NCBI GenBank assembly: GCA_034509925.1
Contig: CM067526.1
Coordinates: forward strand, 11,692,010-11,756,009
Origin: Hirudinaria manillensis
Taxonomy: Eukaryota > Annelida > Clitellata > Hirudinida > Hirudinidae
Length of the DNA: 64,000 nt
Direction of reading: 5' to 3'
Positions 2-57,115 of this stretch are shown here, one piece after another. Position numbers and translations under genes: made by a program. Under the pieces are notes generated by a model. That model had not been told where the DNA came from and searched no databases. It saw only the letters and a program-made list of their open reading frames with translations. Within the stretch, counting starts at the first letter, position 1, and each line of letters begins with the position of its first letter.

Positions 2-10283
<10,282 letters not shown>

Positions 10284-10798
10284 TACATATTCATCGTTCA
10301 TCAGGTGATGTTATAAGCGAGAGGCCAATCAAATAACCTATTGAAATTAGGTCATCCAATCAAAGCTAGCTTCGCATTGGAGGAACTCGTTGGCCAATTG
10401 GCCAATCACATCGATCGTTATCACTTTCGACCTTCAACAATCATCACCCTATGAACTGAATTACGAACGGACAATTTGAAAGCAATATCACTGAAAGCAT
10501 GCAATAACAACTCCATGTTTTTCTACTTGTAACTGTACGCGAGCGTGTTCGATTCCTGGTTTATCCAAACCGAAACACTTTCAGTATTCGGAAGTAGTTA
10601 CGATTTTTATTATTTAAAGAGTAACTTGTGCATTTAAATTTCCGGTTTAAATTAATTTATTTATTTAAATTCGTTTAATTATTCTTCAATGCCTCGATTC
10701 CAAAGTTTTTCCCTCCAAGAATTCTCATGAATTCTATTCGTTTATTAAAATTAATGACATTAGTTTTAATAATAACATTAATAATAATAATAATAACA

Positions 10799-10965
<167 letters not shown>

Positions 10966-12374: not shown

Positions 12375-14700
12375 GACTTAATATTATTATTGAGTTATTA
12401 TTGAAGAATTGCTTAGTTTATAGGGTGTCAGTCAAACATGGATTATTTAGTTTATCGTTTGTTTATCCATTATTTATTTAGAATTTCTTGTGGAAACTCT
12501 TCAAAATAAATAACTTGGTGGTTGTAATGATAACGAACAAATGTCAACATATTCTACTTGTCAATTGTTAGAGGAGAACTGATATTGCCTTAATCACTTA
12601 GTATGAAACCAATGTTCTCTGATGATAATGCCGATAATAATAATAATATTATAATATTATTGTGTCCTTCTCTACCACGTGTTAATTTACGCTTTATAAA
12701 GTAATTTTGTTTTATTTGTTCAAGTTATTTCTGATTCCAACAACCAAATTCGCTTATCAGATGTCGATTTAAAATGTTTTGAAATGAAACAAAGCACGTC
12801 AGCTCCAATTTGTTCGTATATATACAGGTCACCAGAGGCTTTAAATCAAGTTCTAAAATAAGACATTTCTCCTTAAAGGCGGGGCAATCATTTTGTATAC
12901 CTAGCACTTTTCGTATTTAATATTTAACGATATATTAAAAAACGTTTCAAACAAGTAATGATTGCAATCATAATTTTTTTTATAAATAATGATATTAAAT
13001 CATCACTTCATCAATCATCATTCCTTTCGTTATCCTTGGTCTTCTGTCACAGCACCTCCCTGGTTAATCTATATCTCTCATTATCAGGTGTTCGTTGTTC
13101 CCATCGTGTTTACCTCATCTCATAGTGTTGTCATTAATTGTCACATATCGTTAGCAACAGAAGTTTGGTCATCAAAATCTCAGTTTATCATTTATGTAAA
13201 GACCCTTTCATACGCCCCTTCAACTTTGTCAATATGAATTAGCCTATCCCCTAGACGGGAATTAAATTCCCTTGGGATAAACCATTGATAAATTTGTGAT
13301 TTCTTTTGGGCATGATTTGTGTATATTTCAAATTTGTTTTTGAATAAACGAATTCACTAACTAAAAAAAAATGCCCATATCCATGTATGTATTGTATATA
13401 CAGTAGTTTCTTAATCATTCCAAAGATGGCACAGTTCGCGAAAGTTCCGAAAAGTTTAGAATTTGTAAATTCATGCATTCTAAATTTTGAAAAGTTTAAC
13501 GCACTAAAAAAATAATTAATAAATTTCCTTATTTACATATTTATTTATAAATAAACACAAAATTATTCAAGATGGTAACAAATTGAGACCAACCCAAAAT
13601 CAAACTGATAACGATCTATTTCTAAAAACAATTAAAATTTATGCAAAAAATCATTAATTGTTTAAAGTTTAAAATAATGTTATTTTAAAATTAATTTCGT
13701 GCAACGAATATTGTTAATTAATTAATTAATTTATTTATTTATTTTCATTAGCATGTCATTTCTATAAATTTTTATTAAAATTTTTATTCTTGACGAATCA
13801 TCTTGAAAATTTAATTTAGTAAATTATTTTTTAATCAAGGTTCCGCTTTTAACAAGAAAGAGAACTTGAGAATAAATTATTATAATTGCAGGTTTAGTTG
13901 CTATGGTAACAAGCTACGCAGCTATGCATATCTAATAAAGCACGTTGTCTTAATGGGCGGTGCAAACTTATTTTTACTACAAGCGCTTCAAAACACAACT
14001 CCCCCTCGCTTGAATTTTTACTTAAATTTTGCTAAATTTGATAGAAATTTTTTTATTTATGATTGGATTTCTTAAAGAATAAACCCCATCTTAGCAATTT
14101 TTGTCTAAGCACATCTAAAATCCAAATTATTTTTGGTCATTTTGTGCGGAATTCTTTATGTTTTTGGGATTAAAGTTACGATAAAGTTTTTAAAATTATC
14201 ATTATAAATTTTTAAGACATCTAAAGTCGTAACTAATAAACATTCGTGCCCGATCAACGACTTGTGCCATCTTCATTATCATCTCCTTGAATAATTACAC
14301 AGCCTTGTTTACTTTTCATGGTAATGGATGTATTCATGAATAATGAATTATCTTTAAAACTTGAATATTGAACGTCGGATGTCACCGAAAGTTGTTCAAT
14401 TCTTTTATTTGTGGTTCTTTTAAGCGATTCTCGACCATTGGTGCGAAGTATTGCAAAGCATCGTTTATCGATGTTATGGTTTTTATGTAATTTTCAAGTA
14501 TTTTATGCAATAAGGCTCGCTTAAACCTTTATTTTTTCGTGATGGATGTCAGTTTGCTTCCATTACGGGGTCAGGAAATAGCTGACGATAAATTACTTGT
14601 TTTTTAGGCTAAGTGTAGCTCGTTCTAAAGGAGGAGAAGTTGTGAAGTGACGAGCAAGTTTGACTGTTAATTAATTTATAAACACGGGATCGTCGGTGAC

Positions 14701-17700
14701 ATGCCACCTGTACAGGAGATTTCGGAGACCATTGAAGTTCCGAACCAAACGCCAATTCCCCCTACTCACACTCCTGCATTTCCGAGAGGAATTTCTTCGG
14801 TCAATGGCGAAGAAAATGTTTATGGAGAAAATGACGTCGATATGGGAAGGATTCCATCAACAGCTGAGCAATGCAAGGAATCCATTTGCAGGTCAAAGCA
14901 ACAATCAATGCCTCTTCTGAATAATAATAACAACAACAACAACAGCAACATTAAAAATTACAACAACAACAATGACGACGACGATGATTGCTGGAATCTC
15001 ACAAGCCTGGATTGGCTGCAGGATAGAAATCTACTCAGAAAAGTCATTACGAATCCAGATTCAAACAGGTCGGGCGGCTTTCTTTCTGCGAGTCCCACTC
15101 CGTCTGACGAGGGCAAGTGCAATTCTTGCAAGTACGTGGTCCCCAAGAGAGAGTGTCTGTCTGACGCGGAGTGCTTCGAGCCTCTGATGCCGGAAGCCTA
15201 CCACCCCACGCGCCACGCGGACTGCAAGCCTCCTTATTCCTACAGCTGCTTGATCTTCATGGCCATCGAGAACTCTTCGGAAAAGAAACTGCCAGTGAAG
15301 GAGATTTACGCCTGGATTCAGAACAATTTTCCTTTCTACAAAAGAGCTCCGAGCGGATGGATGAATTCCGTCAGGCACAACTTGTCCCTCAACAAGTGCT
15401 TCACCAAAGTCGAGAAGGACAGGGGTGTTGTGAGTTGACTTTTGCTTTCTTTTTGCTTATTTAGGCAAAAAAAATTTGAATTTGATTTGAAAATAGTAGA
15501 AAAACAATTAATTTGGAAGGTGCAAAATGCACAAGTGTTTTTTTTGCTTCTGCATTGAAGAATGATCTCAGGCAGCTCATGATAGATTAGATCTATTATT
15601 TAGATAGATTATTAGATATTAGATATATTTGAATCCAGTGCCAATGAAAAATACCTTGTTAATAAATCATGTAGTGATGCATTCATTGCCATAGGCTTGT
15701 CTAAAGTCTTTTAAATATTAAGGATCTAATTGAGGAAAGTTAAGTTGACATTTTGTGGTATTTTGCGGGCAAATAATTTATATTATAATCAAAGTAGAAA
15801 TTAACGACTTTAATTAATCAATCCGCTGACAGGGCATTGGCAAGGGGTCGTATTGGTGCGTCGACCCGACCTACAAAGCCAACTTGTTGCACGCCCTTCG
15901 CAAGACACCATACCAGCCTTTCCATCAGATGCAAATGGTATCATCCAATCATGCCTCAGCATCCTTGGGGTTAGTTTAGCTTTCAGTTTTTTTTCTGCTC
16001 ATCTGATATTTCATAATTTTTTTTATTTTTGTTTAAATCTACTTTTATTTAATTATATGCAAGAAAGTCTAAGGACCAAAGAATTTTTATGCACAAAATT
16101 GACCAAAACAAAATACGTGATAATAACTTCTTTGTCTTCTTTTAACAAACAAATTTGTTTTTTTTTTGAAGCACTCCACTCACGTCTCAGGAAATGAAGC
16201 AGAATCAAAGTTTAAAAAGTAATAATTTTCAACCATTTAACTTAATTTGTGATTGAAATCATCACCATCATTGCAACTACTATCATCGCCGTCATCATCA
16301 TCGCCTTTGTCGTCATCATCACCATAATAATTCACTTGATGAATTATGGATCTAGTCAGTGAATGTTAAGATGGCTTATTAAGTTTTTGCAAATTGCTTT
16401 AAGTTTAAGTCTTTAGATCTCATCAAAGTTATTTCTTTTTAATTAGTTAATTATAACTAATTTTTAATTAAATTATTTACCAGTTACTTGTAAAGCAATT
16501 AGAATGTTCAGCTGGTAGTGTGTTTGTGTTTTTTCTTTGAAGGTCTATTTCCATATGTCAGCAAAAAGTCACAAGGGAAGCAGGCTGCAGGTTTGGAATG
16601 ATTTCTGTTCCAAATAATGTTGTTATCAATTTTAAACTGATTATAAATTAAGTATTATTTGATTATTAGTTAGTAAGTTTCTTTAAGATTCTTAGAAATT
16701 AATGATTGATTTGAAGATAATGTGCTGATAAATTTGTGAGAAATCGTTAGGTAATTGTAGAGAAGGAGAATCATGGCATCGTTGAAATTAGAATCTCATG
16801 TTCTTCGGGCGAGTTTAGAAATAAATAAATAAATCGGATTCAATTTCTGTTGCAGATTCCAGCGAAATCGACGTTGCCAATGCTCTCGTGTCGTTGAGAA
16901 AGTCCGGCAATCACTCGAACAAGGCGTGCGGCAGGAGGCACAGCGCCGGCGACGATGACGACTCCGACGATTGGGTCGACGAGGATGTCGACTCCGATGA
17001 AGCAGACGACAATGACGAGGAGACAACGACGGCCGAAATGGTGCACATGCTCAAGCAAAAGTTGGGGTTGGAACTGATGAAAATGTTTTTGATTAATTTT
17101 GTATGACGTTGTTGTACTCTCTGTTCACGCGTGTCTGTCGTCTGTTGGCTCACCATTATCATCATGTTTATTATATTGTTTTAAATCGTTGTGAAAATAT
17201 CATTATTGCTTTATATCACTATGGATATATCATTATTGCTCTGTACCATTGTGGAGATTTCATTATTGCTTAATATCATCTTGGAGATATCATTATTGCT
17301 CTGTACCATTGTGGTGATATCATGTTTGCTTTTTTATCTCTTGGCACAGACAACAGAAGGTGAAAAAGAATTTCTACTGCACTCCGCCCGTGTCGATAGA
17401 TCATCAGTACGGCATGTCGGACGACAGGGTCAGGGACATCCTGACGAGATTCGATTGCTTTGACGACGAGTGTTGCAGTCTTTCATCCATGTCCGAAGAC
17501 GAAAACGAAGAAGGAAGAGACGGCCTCCACGCAAACGTGGTCGCAAATCTACTCGCAGACGTTGAAATAAAACAGGAAATCAAAGAAGAGCCGTTGTCCG
17601 AAGAGGAGACCGCGGAAGACGTGCAAGGGAAGGCGAGTACGAAGCAGTCCAAGCCGAATGGTACCGGCAAGAAGTCGTTGAAACTCAGTTTTGGCAAAAA

Positions 17701-20510: not shown

Positions 20511-22654
20511 TCACCTAAATCCTGACAGACATGTCTGAAATGTCTCAATGAGTTCGCTCGGCCAGGGACGGTCGCTTTGATTGGCCATCCAGCATCTTTC
20601 CACGATCTCCCTGTAGCGTCTCTCCACCGGATCATCTTTTCCAGGCCCGGCATAGATCGGTCTTGCACAAGGAACCTCCAGTCGTTTGGGTTTCGGAAGT
20701 GGCAGCAGGTAATGCGTGTCGAAGTCGAACTCCGTAAAGTTATCGAAGTCGAAGCTCGGACGTAAGTTGTAGGCGACCACGCCAAAGATGATGGCGTGTC
20801 GATCCTTTCCCGCATACGGACTACGTCTCGAAAGCATCTGCCACATCGTCACTCCGAGGGAATAAACGTCAGAACGTGGACCTGGAGGTTCGCCTTTCAG
20901 CAGCTCCGGTGCCCTGTAGACGAACGTTCCGGCCAACTGACTGATTTGGCGTTTCCCCTTGAGCACGCAGAAGTCATTGTCGTTCAAAGGAGAGGGACTG
21001 GCTTTGTCGTCGGTAGCAGACGAGGCACCTTTTCCGTCTGCTTCCCTGCGCTGCGGTCGAAGCAGACGACAGCAGCCGAAGTCGCCGAGTTTGCATTCGT
21101 CCCTGGACGTGATGATGACGTTGGCTGGCTTCAAATCCAGATGAACCACTCTGTTGGAGTGGATAAACTGAAGAGCTCTCGTTATCTCCAGCGAATATCT
21201 TTGAAAGCAATGCAATAGATATATAATATTATTTGTGCTGAGTAATCTGTAATAGGGACAATTAATTTCCTGACCAATTTAGTCACTTAGAGCTACTGGA
21301 GAACGTGGTATTGATCTATTTAAGATTACAATTTGATGTTTCAATTACCATTTTACAGTAACAGTCACAAAATCGAGTAGAATTTCATTCGCAACGAGGG
21401 CCTCAACTCACTTCAGTCTCCTCGGAAGGCCGAGAGCCTGTTTGGGGTCGTTAATGACGTGGAGGAGGTTGCAGTCTCCAGCAAATTCCATGACAATCAC
21501 AGCTTCCTGCGTCGGATCGCCAATGCTTGCTGCCAGGACTTGCACTATGTTCGGGTGCTTCAGATTCAAGACGTTGCATTCTGCTCTGAAACTCTCTAGC
21601 TTGGCTCGTGCATTTTTCACCCGTCTGATTAATTTAAGTTGTAGTTAATAATAAGTATCACAAATAATCTAAATATCTAAAAATTAACACTTAAAAAAAT
21701 CTAAAATATGGAAGAATTTTAAAGTTTCGTGTCTAGTAATGTCTAGAAAATGAAATGAGTCTACATTAAATCTAATATAAAACATTGTAATTTAACTTGT
21801 GAAGTCTTTTCACAGCTACGATTTTGTCTTTGATGACTCCCAAATAGACGGCCCCAAAACCCCCATGTCCAATGAGTTTCTTGAGTCTTATTCTCGTGAT
21901 GTCCTTGTGTGAAATGTGAGGTGGAGAGGTACTGATCCTATCTCCACTCGAACCAAGTCTGTATCTCCAAATTCGTCGTAGCTTTGAGGCCGCAGCTTGT
22001 TTAGGACTGTCGGGTTTCGCGAGAATCGACTTTTTGTAGTTGTAGCTGTCATTATTGAACGAAAAGACTTTGCCGGACAAGTAGCCAGGATTGATGCCGC
22101 TGTTGATAGCAAGATGGCCGTCGTTGTCATGCAATTTGGAGTTTTCTAAGTCTTGTCCCGTGCTGTTGCTGATATCGAAGAAGATTCTTCGTTCGCGACC
22201 ATCTGCCTTTGGAACTGGCGGAGGCGATTCTTTCGTCGGAGTCTTGAAAACATTGTCGTCCAATTGTTCGACTTGAAATTGGCTAAAAGTGAGCCAAAGC
22301 TATTACAAACCTCATAAAGGAACTTGATGCAATTCGATGCAACCATAAAGGATAACACAGTGCGCTCGCCTATATCGTGTTCCCGTCACAAACGTTAACA
22401 ATTTAAATGTCGTTCAATCTTTATAAAGACATAATTTCGAAGAAAACGTTTTGCCTGGGAAAACTTCCTATGCTGGAATGGAAGCACTTTATTCCGGGTT
22501 TGACGTAAGACCAGTCACTCTCCTCTTCTCCCAATTTGTTCTCCAATTGTCTCGCCAGCAACAAACTCTTAGCCTTGCCATTCCTGTCGACTTTGACTCC
22601 ATGTCGTTCGATGGAAATGGAATTGGCGAGAGGCTCCAATTCATTCCGTAACAT
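20511..22654 (-). CDS. mos: Mos-type serine/threonine protein kinase
   Basis: Exons on the minus strand: 22654-22488, 22282-21797, 21624-21412, 21198-20511; 517 residues, 1554 nt, all phases consistent. Kinase landmarks: Gly-loop LIGHGGFGAVYLG (about residue 192), VAVK lysine (about 215), catalytic loop VHLDLKPANVII (about 309), DFGCC (about 327), RAPELLKGE, SDVYSLGVTMWQM, and VVAYNLRPS. These lines, with HLDLKPAN and APELLKGE, are typical of Mos, the MAPKKK that drives the MEK/ERK pathway in maturing oocytes. The N-terminal region before the kinase (about 185 residues) is longer than in vertebrate Mos. About 35 polar residues are inserted between DFG and APE. Vertebrate mos is intronless; this copy has three introns. 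The first exon is assigned from phase and GC content and is less certain than the kinase exons. It faces FoxN tail to tail. Confidence 0.9.
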
Positions 22655-33032: not shown

Positions 33033-33408
33033 TATTAATTAATATTTATGTACATTAAGTACATGTATTAAATAATATTTATGTACATTAAGTACATGTA
33101 TTAATTAATATTTATGTACATTAAGTACATGTATTAATTAATATTTATGTACATTAAGTACATGTATTAATTAATATTTATGTACATTAAGTACATGTAT
33201 TAATTAATATTTATGTACATTAAGTACATGTATTAATTAATATTTATGTACATTAAGTACATGTATTAATTAATATTTATGTACATTAAGTACATGTATT
33301 AATTAATATTTATGTACATTAAGTACATGTATTAATTAATATTTATGTACATTAAGTACATGTATTAATTAATATTTATGTACATTAAGTACATTTATTA
33401 ATTAATAT
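33033..33408. repeat. 33-bp minisatellite, about 11 copies
   Basis: An exact 33-base period. The unit is ATTTATGTACATTAAGTACA followed by TGTATTAATTAAT. The first unit (TTAAATAAT in place of TTAATTAAT) and the last (ACATTTATT) diverge; the inner copies are identical. Each unit contains a dyad (TGTACATTAAGTACA) and the palindrome ATTAATTAAT. Confidence 0.95.
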
Positions 33409-36089: not shown

Positions 36090-39000
36090 ATGAGGTGTTT
36101 GGCACTTTTCCTGACGATCGGCTTCACTTTTTGTCTTCCTTCAGCCGTTCAAGGTGAGATGTTGCTATGGTGACGACGCTGCTTCTGCTGACGACGACGA
36201 CGACGACCTGCGATGATGATGATGATGGTGGTGGTGATGGTGGTGATGGTGGTGATAGTATTGATTAAGATGATTATGATTTCCGGTGATGATTATGATG
36301 ACGGCGATGATGTTGGCGACGAAGCGGAGAGGCGTGGCAAAGGCGGACAAAACGAATTTGTTAATAAAAAAAGGTAGAGGTGTTGACGGAGGAATAAAAG
36401 AATGAAAGCAGAACAATGGAAATCCATGGAATGATTGAGGCGGGAAATATCGTGATGCAATATCGCTCGGAATATTCGATTTTTTTTTCAATGGATCCGT
36501 GTTGCCGGATTTGTTGTTGATATGTGCTCTAAATTTCTTCAACATCGTTCATCTGTTCCCTCCATTAGAATCACCATCGTCGTTCTAGTCGTCATCGTGG
36601 TGGTTGTCGTCTTCAGCGTCACCGACCACACTCGGCACACGGACGTCGACAACTTTTTTCGGAATTCAAAATGCGCCCTTCGCGAGAGGGGCGGTACTTG
36701 TCCATCATTCCTCTCTCTTTCTTTCTTTCTTTTTTTTTCTCTCTGTCTTCCAAGACCATGCTTATGCTTCGAGTCAACCTATGCCATCTTCTTTTTCTTC
36801 CTCCTCATCTTCATTATCGTCGTCGTCGTCGTTATCGTTATCGACGGCTACACTCGACACACAAGAGGTCGCCAACTTGTTCCAGATTGTGCTTCTGATG
36901 AGAGACGCATCCGTGGTAAGAGCGATCGGACATGGAAAGCTACCGTGGATGGCATCGAAGCAGCTTCTTCGATGGAAGCATCGATTTTTTCGCTCCTACA
37001 TTCATCCAATTTATTCGAGCCTCTCTTCCTCCATTCCTTCAACATCTCTCCACCCTTCCATCCATCGATCCCTTTGATTTAATCCACTTACCCATCCCCG
37101 ACGTTCGAGTTTTCAATCAGTCCATCCCTTTATTCGTTCATTCATCCTTCCTTCCATTCCTTCGTTTATAGTACTTTCCACCCGTCTGCCCATCCGTCCG
37201 AGCAGACACTTTTCCGCTTCGCACCATGTTTAATTCCTTCCTTTCCATCAGTCTTTCTGTCCCTCGTGACCTCAGAAGATATTTATTTTTAAAATAGAAA
37301 GGAATTTTTACCATTTATTTGAGTTCCGGTTTAAAAAAAAAATTTAACATTTTTAATCATTTAAAATTTTGTCGAATAAGGAGAAAATAAAAAGAGATAC
37401 TCGAAATCACAGGATGAAATTGACATTTTCTAGGCGCCATTTTGGAGCCTCAAAGCAGACGACTCGATGCCAAAGAAGGAGATAAGATGGAGTTGATATG
37501 CATTAGACGTTCATCTCTTCACAAACCGTTCGTGTGGTCGCGACGACTCGCCAACGACAGCGACTTCGTCGTTATAGAAACGACGACGACCAACAACTCA
37601 AAGTCGAAAGCTCACCACGACCACCAACAACAACAAACGCAGCAACAACAACAGCATTCGAAGCGTCAACACAAACATCGCCAGCATCAACAAGGCAAAC
37701 AACAAGAGGCTCAAAATTCCACGCCCGACTCCGAGCAGAACCAGCAACAAATACGACACCAGCAACGACCACGAAAGCATAAAACACCGAAAACGACGAC
37801 GACGACGATCACTTCATTGCTTCCCTCGCCACAAAAGAAACCATCAAAACTCAGGAGAGCCATTGCTATGGAAAAAAACGGAGATATCCAGGGAACTGCA
37901 AACCAAGAAAAGCCGAAGAAAAACAAGCAAACAAAGCAACAACAGCAACAAGACAAACGACAACACAAAACAAAGACCGAGACTGCGACGACCAACAAGA
38001 CCCACAACTCTCAACAACAACAACAACAGCAAAAGCAACCTCCCACGAAACAACAGAGAAACAACGAAACCAAAGCATCGACACCCAGGAAAGCTTCCAA
38101 CCGTACCGGCGACAAGCAGGTGACTCCTAGCCACAGGCAGGCGACTCCTAGCGACAGGCAGGCAACTCCTAGCGACCGCCGGGACGATTTCTACGTCTTC
38201 GTGACCACAGACGCCAACACGAAGCTCAGTTACCTGCGCAAGAATCACCTGGAAGTTATTGATAGCGGCGAGTATCGTTGCATGGGCGAAGGCCTTCCCT
38301 CTGATGTGGTCGTTGTTTCAGTCGCCAGGAGTGAGTAGTTGAGGGTTGTTGTTGTGGTCGTCGTTGTCGTTGTTTGTTGTTGTTGTTGTTGTTGATGATG
38401 AGATTCAATTACTTTCCACGCGCAACAATCTGGTTGCTCTCTAATGCAATTTGTCCAGGTTGATGCTTTTATCAGGTTGGACGTGCAAAATAGTGGTGAT
38501 GATGATGATGATAATAATAATAGTAATAATCACTAGTATATTATAATAGTTAGAATTATGTTTATAATAAATATAATTTTATTATATATTATAATTATAT
38601 TATTATATTTATTATTATATAATAATAAATAAATGGTTAATAATAACATAAGCTTTCAAATGATTAGTCGAAATATTTCTTTATTGTTCATAATTTCACA
38701 ATTACCTTCCACCTGCTCTACATTGTTGTTCACGATCGTCCAATCAAGTAATTATCCACGATTTTTTTTTAAACATTTAATTTAAATTTTAAATTTTAAA
38801 ATCGATAAAATAATAAATTCTTAAGAAATATTACTTCTTAAGTATTAATTAATTAATATTAAATAATTAGATAATAAATTGCAATTAAATTAAATTTAAA
38901 ATTAAACGAAATAATTCGAACGACAGCATATTTTCTTTTGTATTAACGAAGTCCGAATTTGGAATAAATAATTTTATATATATTAATAAATAATTTATGG

Positions 39001-40142
39001 AATTAAATTTTAAAAAAAAATTAATATTTTCTTTTCTCCAAAGATATCTTGTTGGAATACAAAAACGCAACAATTGATAAAACGTGCCCGGAATACAACA
39101 GACCAATCTGTCGAAGACTATCATCACCACCACCACCATCATCATCAGCATCAACCTCATCGTCGTCGTCGTCTTCTTCTTCTTCATCACCTTCCAGTAC
39201 AAACGGTGACGGATGGATGACACCACCGCCATCATCGCCATCGTCATCATCACCACCGAATCGTGAAGGATGGGAGCATTCCTTAATTACTCCAAGCACT
39301 TCGCTGGCATCTTCATCAACAGCATCATCATCATCATCATCATCAACGTCATCGTCGTCGTCGTCGTCATCCGTAAAGTGGTCACGCTTCAATGACTCTT
39401 CGGTCATTCAATTCGGTGATGTTTTGGAACTGACCCGACCAAGTAACCTCGCCTTGAATTCTAATTTTTTTGACAAGAATAAATAATTTCCTTTTATTTA
39501 ACAATTTAATATTATTATCGTTATTTTCGGTCTTTTATAATTTAAACCTGGAATATGCAAATATTACAAGCCCACGAGAACGCAGGCCTGTACTCTTGTC
39601 GTGCCAGCGACCAATCAGGAGAAGAACACGTGGTCACCGTGCATTATTTCGGTAGGAAATCGTCATTCATTATTCATGATCTGCTCATTATTCATTACTC
39701 ATTAATATTACAATACTCATTAACATTCATATTATTACCATAAGAGGGTGGAAGTTTTTGATTTGTTGCATTTATTATTGTAATTATTACGTTTTATTAA
39801 TTTATAATCTACGTTAATTCCAGATTATAATTTGAAAATAATAATAAAACATTTAAAACAAATGACGGGCATTAAAAATTCCTTCAACTTTTTCAACTGA
39901 ATTCTTTCAACTTCTACAGTAAGACTTCCTGAGAATGAAGCTCTTAAATCAACATCACCGAACAATTCATTATTTATTGACGTTAAATAATAAATTTTAA
40001 TATTAATTTTAATGTCAAAATATAAAATATGAAACCTCTCAGTGAAATTCTAAAAAACCATCTCAAATGCTTTTCACTCACCCGATAAGAAGTAGATTGC
40101 ATCATCATCGTCCTCGTCTTCGACTTCGTCATCATCATCATC

Positions 40143-40173
<31 letters not shown>

Positions 40174-40525
40174 CCAACCCTATAGTCATCATCGTCGCTA
40201 TCATCATCATCATCATCATCATCATAAAGAAACTAAAGAGAAAAGTCAGAGCAGTTCATAAAAGTTTAAAATGAATAATTTGACAGAAAATGTTACACGA
40301 GAAACAAATTCTTATTCTAGATGACATCATCTCATCTTCCTCCTCCTCCTCCTCCTCCTCTTCCTCTTCCTCTTTCTCATCTTCATTTTATGTTCCTTTG
40401 AACTTTTCAGAAAGTTCATGAAAATATTCAGCTTTTTTCCTTCGTCTCGTAGCGATGGTGCCTGTCATTATCGTCCATTGCATAATAATAACCATATATT
40501 ATATGATTATATGATATATTATATA

Positions 40526-40568
<43 letters not shown>

Positions 40569-42001
40569 GTTGTTATTATTATTATTATTACGTAAACCTA
40601 TCAGCAGTGCTTATTATACATGGCCAAATGGAGTAGCACTTGTTCTCCTGGATACTTGACGTCATGGTTTAATTACATTTTTAAACCATTAAACCTTAAA
40701 TGACCGGGAAAGTACTTTCAGGCCATCTCCGTGTACTTGTACTCGTACAAAGTAATTGAGATGAAGTACAAAGTACATGGTTTACCATCTGAGACTTCGA
40801 CCCGAAATGGCTTTTAAAATTGCACTTATTTTATGGCTTCGTACACTGAAGAGCCTTAGTGGGAGGGGTTTAACATTACATATTAATAGAATTCATTAAT
40901 TATTCATTAGATTCATTAACATTTCGGTTTCAAATGCACGGACTTATTTATCCGAAACAGCTCCTCCGGCGACCAAAATCCAAGAGAAGACAAACAAAAT
41001 CGTCGAAGGTCACGACTTGACCTTGAGATGTCACGTCTGGGGTTGGCCCCTTCCGGAAGTCACGTGGTGGAAAGACGGCAAAGAAGTGGACGCAACTGAA
41101 ATTACGAGAATCAAAATGGCGGATAATTCCACCGGAAGTGCTTCTACGCACGGCGAGTGGAAGGTTCGAGAATATAATGCAATTGCGAGCAACAACAACA
41201 ACAGCAACACCGTCACGTTCAACATCTCCGTCAACAACAACAACAACAACAAAACATCCCAATCACGTGATTTGAGATTAAACGTTTGGAGAGAAGATTT
41301 GCTGACAGCCAAGCTGCAGACGGCGCACAATTCTCCAGGTTTCGTTTCAGTCCTCGGAATTTCCAGGGTGAAATTTTCCGACAGGGCTAAATATAGCTGC
41401 GTGGCTACCAACACCATACCGCTACCATGTTACAATGGCACTCGGCTCATTTCTAACGCCACCGTCATGGTTAGAATAAGCGGTGAGTAAATTGAAGATG
41501 ATGACAACGATGGTGGTGGTGGTGATGACGACTACGATGATGATTATGATGATGATGATGATGATGATTATTATAATGACAACTACGACTACGTCGGCTA
41601 ATGGAAATGGGCCGTCATCCATTAAGCTGTTGACATTAATGGTCTTTTCATTGAAAACTGAAACGTAGAATAACATGAACGCTGGATGTATAAAACTGCG
41701 TCTCTTTGGGTTTATTGTTGTCATCGCTTTGAACGTCGTCATCGTCGTCGTCGACTTCAACGTCATTGTAGTCATCATCATCATCATCATCATCATCACC
41801 ACGGGCACTATCATCGTCGTCGTCGTCATCACCATTGTTTCAGGAAAACTAGATTTCTTGTGGCCTCTGCTGGGTATAATAGCTGAATTCATCATCCTGT
41901 TCATCATCATCATCATCTACGAAAACAACAAGAAGAGGAAGAAGCGGGAAGATGCAGACGACGACGATGACGAGGAGAGCGGAAGTTCAAGGGCAAAGTA
42001 G
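36090..42001 (+). CDS. bsg: basigin/neuroplastin-like Ig membrane protein with low-complexity insertions
   Basis: Exons: 36090-36153, 37434-38330, 39044-39442, 39571-39651, 40961-41482, 41844-42001; 706 residues, 2121 nt, phases consistent. Exon 1 is a signal peptide ([20 protein letters not shown]). Three Ig domains follow. Ig1 has ELICIRRS and DSGEYRCMG, Ig2 has VKWSRFND and [13 protein letters not shown], and Ig3 has [20 protein letters not shown] and [13 protein letters not shown]. The membrane segment reads [14 protein letters not shown] then [11 protein letters not shown]; LWPxLGIxAE with its buried Glu is the hallmark of basigin/neuroplastin. A basic then acidic tail ([15 protein letters not shown]) also fits. 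Basigin escorts monocarboxylate transporters to the plasma membrane and mediates adhesion. The protein is about twice the usual length because of a Gln/Lys/Thr insertion in Ig1 (about 198 residues), a Ser insertion in Ig2, and Asn runs in Ig3. A further C-terminal exon is possible (42380-42467). Confidence 0.9.
37590..38183 (+). repeat. Gln/Asn/Lys/Thr low-complexity insertion inside Ig1 exon
   Basis: CAA/AAC/AAG/ACG-rich coding sequence between the Ig1 tryptophan region and its second cysteine, open in frame throughout. At 38117-38179 it ends in three tandem 21-bp units, each translating to a variant of QATPSDR. Confidence 0.85.
39118..39375 (+). repeat. Ser-rich low-complexity insertion inside Ig2 exon
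   Basis: TCA/TCG/TCC-rich microsatellite-like sequence translated as Ser and Pro runs between the first Ig2 cysteines ([10 protein letters not shown]) and VKWSRF. The frame stays open into the conserved Ig sequence. Confidence 0.85.
40100..40590. repeat. (CAT)n and (ATT)n microsatellites in basigin-like gene intron 4
   Basis: CATCAT/CACCAC runs at about 40100-40225, CTC/TTC at 40337-40375, and (ATT)n at 40527-40590, in the 1.3-kb intron between the Ig2 and Ig3 exons. Poly-His and poly-Tyr frames here are artefacts. Confidence 0.85.

Positions 42002-43706: not shown

Positions 43707-57115
<13,409 letters not shown>

Follow-up and report, generated by a model that had tools for sequence, protein, structure and literature searches.

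A basigin/neuroplastin-family gene of the leech Hirudinaria manillensis with long low-complexity stretches in its immunoglobulin exons

Can the compact immunoglobulin (Ig) domains of an animal membrane protein carry simple-sequence loops as long as or longer than the domains themselves, or does such sequence betray a misread intron, a selected function or a decaying gene? The question is raised by a gene of the leech Hirudinaria manillensis at positions 36090..42001 (+ strand) of a 64,000-nucleotide stretch of contig CM067526.1 (GenBank assembly GCA_034509925.1, positions 11,692,010 to 11,756,009, forward strand), hereafter the window, to which positions refer unless a contig is named. An earlier note, made from the letters alone, had described a basigin-like protein with in-frame simple-sequence insertions in each of three Ig domains. 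We consider it about two-thirds probable that this is an intact gene of the basigin/neuroplastin family in which exonic loops were lengthened by slippage and are translated as tolerated loops.

The gene model, which follows splice signals and the phase of the reading frame, has six exons encoding 706 residues plus a stop (Table 1). All five introns are GT-AG introns in phase 1, and the six modelled exons are uninterrupted by stop or frameshift. The signal peptide is predicted from sequence hydrophobicity (mean Kyte-Doolittle value of +1.37 over residues 1-22). Three inserts, whose boundaries were drawn by eye, make up 353 of the 632 ectodomain residues and contain no cysteine: insert 1, rich in Gln/Thr/Lys, lies in Ig1; insert 2, rich in Ser/Pro, lies in exon 3; and insert 3, rich in Asn, lies in Ig3. 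The host genome comprises 148.4 Mb in 23 contigs, and its description (PMC10671345) reports 13 chromosomes of 14.76-8.30 Mb, nine further scaffolds and a mitochondrion of 15,581 bases, assembled from PacBio HiFi reads, which makes gross misassembly of the repeats less likely. The mitochondrial genes include the order COX3-Gln-ND6-CYTB, a sign of annelids.

The family assignment comes from the membrane segment. Searched by itself, the transmembrane/tail exon has 12 matches in the PDB at E <=10; neuroplastin and basigin entries fill the first five ranks (E 3.1e-8 to 2.1e-6), and the remainder have E >=0.46, with embigin ninth (E 0.82). When the inserts are left out and the rest is joined, neuroplastin 9gsd_B matches in one stretch from Ig2 to the tail (E 4.2e-21). 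Ig3 together with the transmembrane segment is matched in one stretch by 9gsd_B (E 6e-20) and by basigin 7daa_A and 4u0q_B (E about 1e-10). The basigin-family identity proposed earlier is supported. A genome search with the membrane segment of the window gene hit 15 places at E <=10, six of them basigin-type genes including its own locus; a search with the membrane segment of a paralog hit exactly these six at E <=0.05. By these sequence matches, the window gene belongs to the basigin/neuroplastin family and is one of at least six such genes in the genome, the counts of loci being lower bounds.

The five paralogs share with the window gene the same membrane segment, in which the glutamate is invariant across all six genes, and an Ig2 interrupted by an intron between strands E and F; in three of the six, namely the window gene, L018 and L019, the phase of this intron was legible and is 1. 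Three Ig domains were made out in the window gene, L018 and L026, and two in L019, L020 and L022. For the window gene itself this count needs qualifying: Ig1 and Ig3 are supported, which makes two, and Ig2 is weakly so, through strands E-F and the common split. Pairwise identity among the six genes is 28-40% over the Ig3 and membrane columns, and judged on their sequences the six genes are old. In the trees L018 and the window gene fall together, moderately supported (FastTree 0.872; IQ-TREE 78 for the same split).

Nine of the 15 places from the first search were set aside. Five of these were opened (C13:2755255, C2:9043396, C8:453502, C2:3158944 and C11:6982690), the remaining four having E from 0.0742 to 3.88. 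When the open frames of the five were scanned for Ig motifs, the sole match, not Ig in appearance, came from C2:3158944; at C2:9043396 and C8:453502 the hydrophobic runs are coded by repeats. The Pfam family Ig_6 (PF18452) was tried as a family probe and dropped after one sub-threshold match. In the window gene, five units of a TCA/ATC repeat encode the isoleucine run of the transmembrane segment (41901-41915), whose residues nevertheless align with those of the paralogs.

In Ig1, between our chosen anchors, the strand-C tryptophan and the strand-F cysteine, the window gene has 247 residues where L018 has 58 and L026 has 51; neither of these two, the paralogs in which an Ig1 was found, has a comparable insert. 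The excess of about 190 residues between strands C and F agrees with the roughly 198 residues first estimated. Both flanks fall in order on a model built from paralogs only, and the joined flanks score 14.0 bits, a value reached by none of 500 shuffles, against 12.6 bits with the insert in place. The insert is rich in Gln, Thr, Lys and Arg, has a net charge of +28, lacks cysteine, and holds five of the protein's 14 N-glycosylation sequons (residues 75, 116, 209, 232 and 244).

We scanned for splice sites with generic weights, which were not trained on H. manillensis and serve as a guide only. Scores range from 0.35 to 6.5 for the five donors of the gene model and from -6.3 to 5.6 for its five acceptors. 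Among 23 donor-like sites in exon 2 only one scores above zero, at 38120, within the tail of the insert, and all others score -3.3 or less. With the sole positive donor so placed there is no clean intron that would remove the insert, and on these weights the scan found no plausible GT-AG intron within exon 2 that does so.

Ig3 tells a similar story, shared with a relative. The tryptophan-to-cysteine distance is 110 residues in the window gene and 113 in L018, compared with 43, 31, 41 and 45 in L026, L019, L022 and L020, whose Ig3 domains are compact. The excess in the window gene is about 65-80 residues. The domain is matched by the Pfam I-set profile (E 7.8e-14), and on the paralog-only model it scores 53.3 bits with the insert and 59.3 bits without it, the latter value reached by none of 500 shuffles. 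The two asparagine runs that had been remarked upon are present, but they are part of a larger expansion that takes in the entire extended C'-E loop and recurs in L018. There the loop is of similar length and Ser/Asn-rich, with a sequence that differs from that of the window gene. As a yardstick, 133 complete, stop-free Ig_3 matches in the genome exceed their profile by a median of 2 and a maximum of 38 residues; the length excess of the window gene lies far outside this range. These come from 149 listed matches, of which seven containing stops and nine partial ones, 16 together, were excluded; the list is biased to compact domains because only 150 of 819 candidates were scored.

The insertions had been placed between conserved Ig strands throughout. 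This holds for Ig1 and Ig3 and is not established for Ig2. There the presumed strand-B cysteine is 97 residues from the tryptophan of VKW, as against 13, 12, 5, 6 and 9 in the five paralogs, with anchors chosen by us; an automatic alignment instead put the tryptophan of GWEH, within the Ser-rich part, on the strand-C column. The Ser-rich stretch, put earlier at about 85 residues inserted into Ig2, is real, but the half that precedes it is unsupported as Ig: this flank scores below zero on the paralog model. In pairwise comparison it is closest to L019, with nine of 500 shuffles reaching the score in what was one of five comparisons. On these results Ig2 is a putative Ig domain.

Where might the inserts have come from? 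They had been said to contain the triplets of nearby introns. This is so for insert 2, in which ATC-class triplets have a frequency of 0.32 compared with 0.298 in intron 5, and in part for insert 1, in which the AAC class is about twofold or more enriched (0.238, compared with 0.078-0.12 in introns 2-5; for intron 1 AAC is not among the six classes tabulated). In intron 2 the AAC class includes one run of seven units.

The course of events that we favor would run as follows. The protein probably works in the membrane as its relatives do, as a single-pass protein whose glutamate-bearing helix associates with a transporter, or with a partner of similar kind, and escorts it to the surface; in the basigin family this helix is thought to carry the transporter interaction. 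With the essential contact lying in the membrane, constraint on the outer loops would have been lost, and low-complexity codon repeats could then have grown within exons by replication slippage under weak constraint. The places of growth would be loops, C'-E in Ig1 and Ig3 and perhaps B-C in Ig2. The inserts would be translated as long, polar, cysteine-free and probably disordered loops, around which the Ig domains would still fold, and they would be tolerated for two reasons: it is the membrane segment that binds the partner, and Ig1 and Ig3 keep their core strands intact. Translation is suggested by the uninterrupted gene structure and, for Ig1 and Ig3, by flank matches that lie within single exons.

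Several results weigh against an intact gene with translated loops. When PDB matches of the joined protein are ranked by E-value, DSCAM and titin lead, with Robo2 also ahead and neuroplastin fifth, and over Ig3 alone neuroplastin and basigin are outscored by DSCAM, titin and further Ig proteins. The Ig1 model was built from two sequences only, and insert-free Ig1 lies under every Pfam cut-off (V-set E 0.0069), so the assignment of Ig1 rests on that two-sequence model. Of 2000 dinucleotide shuffles, 5.85% keep an open frame for insert 1, 38.6% for insert 2 and 10.3% for insert 3; the open frame is weak evidence of coding. The codon-position entropy spreads of the inserts (0.37, 0.60 and 0.10) fall within the 0-1.09 of 19 non-coding arrays, some of them overlapping, several of which have codon-position asymmetry equal to or above that of the inserts. 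AlphaFold2, given the Ig3 and Ig1 exons alone and no alignment, returned mean pLDDT (predicted local distance difference test) values of 39 and 42, which are uninformative on folding. Finally, while the flanks of Ig1 and of Ig3 can each be placed in one Ig fold on the paralog models, for those of Ig2 this is not supported: joined, they score 2.7 bits, reached by 15 of 500 shuffles, and the frame of exon 3 itself, at -1.5 bits, is surpassed by several frames of intron 2. Exon 3 moreover contains an acceptor-like site at 39196 that scores 6.5, above all five modelled acceptors, a comparison made soft by the negative scores of two of those five.

These last points belong to a different account, in which part of the low-complexity sequence lies outside the mature messenger RNA: exon 3 would be mis-modelled or alternatively spliced, the Ser-rich stretch would be an intron or optional, and Ig2 would be built otherwise. 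Besides the strong site at 39196, a weak in-frame pair, 39206-39322 (117 bases), could take out part of the Ser-rich stretch as an intron, and the exon 3 sequence before that stretch matches no paralog Ig2. Yet 39196 needs phase 2 and exon 2 ends in phase 1, and we found no convincing strand A-B sequence elsewhere in 38331-39460, where the best of all frames, an intron frame, scores 1.4 bits on the Ig2 paralog model; this is above exon 3, but all are at noise level. Nor does the account extend to Ig1, as exon 2 holds no such pair of sites. We regard it as unlikely. Decay is a less probable explanation still. A pseudogene, or something near to one, could collect repeats in unconstrained exons, and the window gene does have a long branch (0.98 substitutions per site in FastTree) and a barely recognizable Ig2; but the branches of the other five genes span 0.50-1.02, the modelled exons have neither stop nor frameshift, GT and AG are in place at every intron, and the transmembrane segment and the Ig3 core are well kept. 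Slim odds, slightly better than those of decay, go to the idea that the inserts are functional and selected, as a basic Gln/Lys-rich arm on Ig1 and a Ser/Pro-rich, mucin-like stretch that would bind matrix, mucus or other surfaces. The charge of +28 and the five of 14 sequons of insert 1, the 44 serines among the 82 residues of insert 2, and the expansion of the place of insert 3 in L018, where an expanded loop may have persisted, fit this idea; against it, the composition of insert 2, and in part that of insert 1, follows triplet classes repeated nearby, and the L018 loop differs in sequence. Loops lengthened by slippage in an intact gene thus remain the reading that we prefer.

Is the window gene alone in this? 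Among 15 places picked for odd matches, a choice from which no rate is obtainable, Ig exons of three other genes (L038, L043 and L044) have 78, 101 and 74 residues from tryptophan to cysteine in open frame, with the extra length at the C'-E position; the loop of L038 is Ser-rich. In several others of the 15, stops break the match or it breaks off at the strand-C half, a pattern expected of introns. In the loops of L018, L038, L043 and L044 there is no donor-acceptor pair with both scores above zero on the generic weights, the nearest being a pair in L018 (donor -0.4, acceptor 3.8). It is conceivable, albeit doubtful, that the C'-E loops of Ig domains in H. manillensis, as in these four genes and the window gene, are a general landing zone for triplet-repeat growth. 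If that were true, and if repeat length varied between individuals, slippage could generate individual diversity on extracellular recognition proteins with the Ig core untouched.

Table 1. Features of the window gene, its surroundings and its paralogs (window positions; for paralogs, contig and position in the genome)
Feature	Position	Strand	Remarks
Exon 1	36090..36153	+	Start codon and predicted hydrophobic signal peptide, residues 1-21; donor score 6.5
Exon 2	37434..38330	+	Entire Ig1 including insert; single open frame, phase 1 at both ends
Ig1 insert	37580..38182	+	201 residues between strands C' and D/E; boundaries by eye against L018 and L026
21-bp tandem repeat, end of Ig1 insert	38109..38176	+	3.2 copies, 7 codons per unit; Tandem Repeats Finder
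Exon 3	39044..39442	+	Presumed Ig2 strands A-E with Ser-rich stretch; A-B half unsupported by paralog model
Ser/Pro-rich stretch of exon 3	39127..39372	+	82 residues, 44 Ser, no Cys; boundaries by eye
Exon 4	39571..39651	+	Ig2 strands F-G
Exon 5	40961..41482	+	Entire Ig3, I-set
Ig3 extended C'-E loop	41128..41337	+	70 residues, two Asn runs; boundaries by eye
Exon 6	41844..42001	+	Transmembrane helix with Glu, then basic, then acidic tail, stop
Forkhead domain gene	14671-15435	+	
Protein kinase domain gene	20514-21278	-	
CHD-type helicase	47051-47416 and 48301-48789	-	DUF1087, Helicase_C
L018	C8:9546019		Basigin-family paralog
L019	C5:6888996		Basigin-family paralog
L020	C1:5911462		Basigin-family paralog
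L022	C11:4292984		Basigin-family paralog
L026	C4:546078		Basigin-family paralog

The surroundings of the gene hold the three other coding loci listed in Table 1 and several repeat arrays: a 33-bp AT-rich tandem array at 33033-33408 (11.4 copies, 99% matches) and two very long triplet arrays, of ATT at 7948-8176 (76 units) and of TAA at 10767-10962 (65 units). Elsewhere in the genome, telomere-like TTAGGG clusters lie near contig ends, with 39 copies at the start of C2 (L029) and 22 at the end of C8 (L032).

Basigin, neuroplastin and embigin share with the window gene a signal peptide, Ig domains, a transmembrane helix with a glutamate and an LWPxxGI-type start, and a short basic-acidic tail. 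The window gene differs from them in that more than half of its ectodomain is low-complexity or extended loop and in that Ig2 is poorly recognizable. It had been suggested that the product would be a strongly altered extracellular partner for monocarboxylate transporters (MCTs). This suggestion is weakened: PMC2409183, citing Kirk et al. 2000, states that CD2-basigin chimeras showed the interaction with MCTs to take place without involvement of the extracellular domain, and an ectodomain dispensable for binding takes force from the transporter argument. The same paper reports that glutamine can stand in for the glutamate.

Low-complexity inserts within conserved folds are known from elsewhere. 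In PMC12655044, P5 ATPases of Plasmodium are said to carry such inserts, modelled as disorganised loops; like those of the window gene they are polar, bear repeats and run to tens to hundreds of residues, although there the hosts are protist ATPases and here the extracellular Ig domains of an animal. The change seen in the window gene is of a known kind, taken to an extreme. In a narrow look at open-licence PMC articles, covering leeches by title, we found no description of a leech or annelid basigin with such inserts, or of microsatellite insertions in Ig domains.

One consequence is practical: domain searches on the H. manillensis genome can miss or split Ig domains. The others depend on translation of the inserts. 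Given that, Ig domains of animals could accommodate loops roughly double their own length, and over half of the outer part of a transporter-escort protein could consist of repeats and extended loops. The gene would then offer a natural experiment on how small a part of the basigin ectodomain the membrane function requires.

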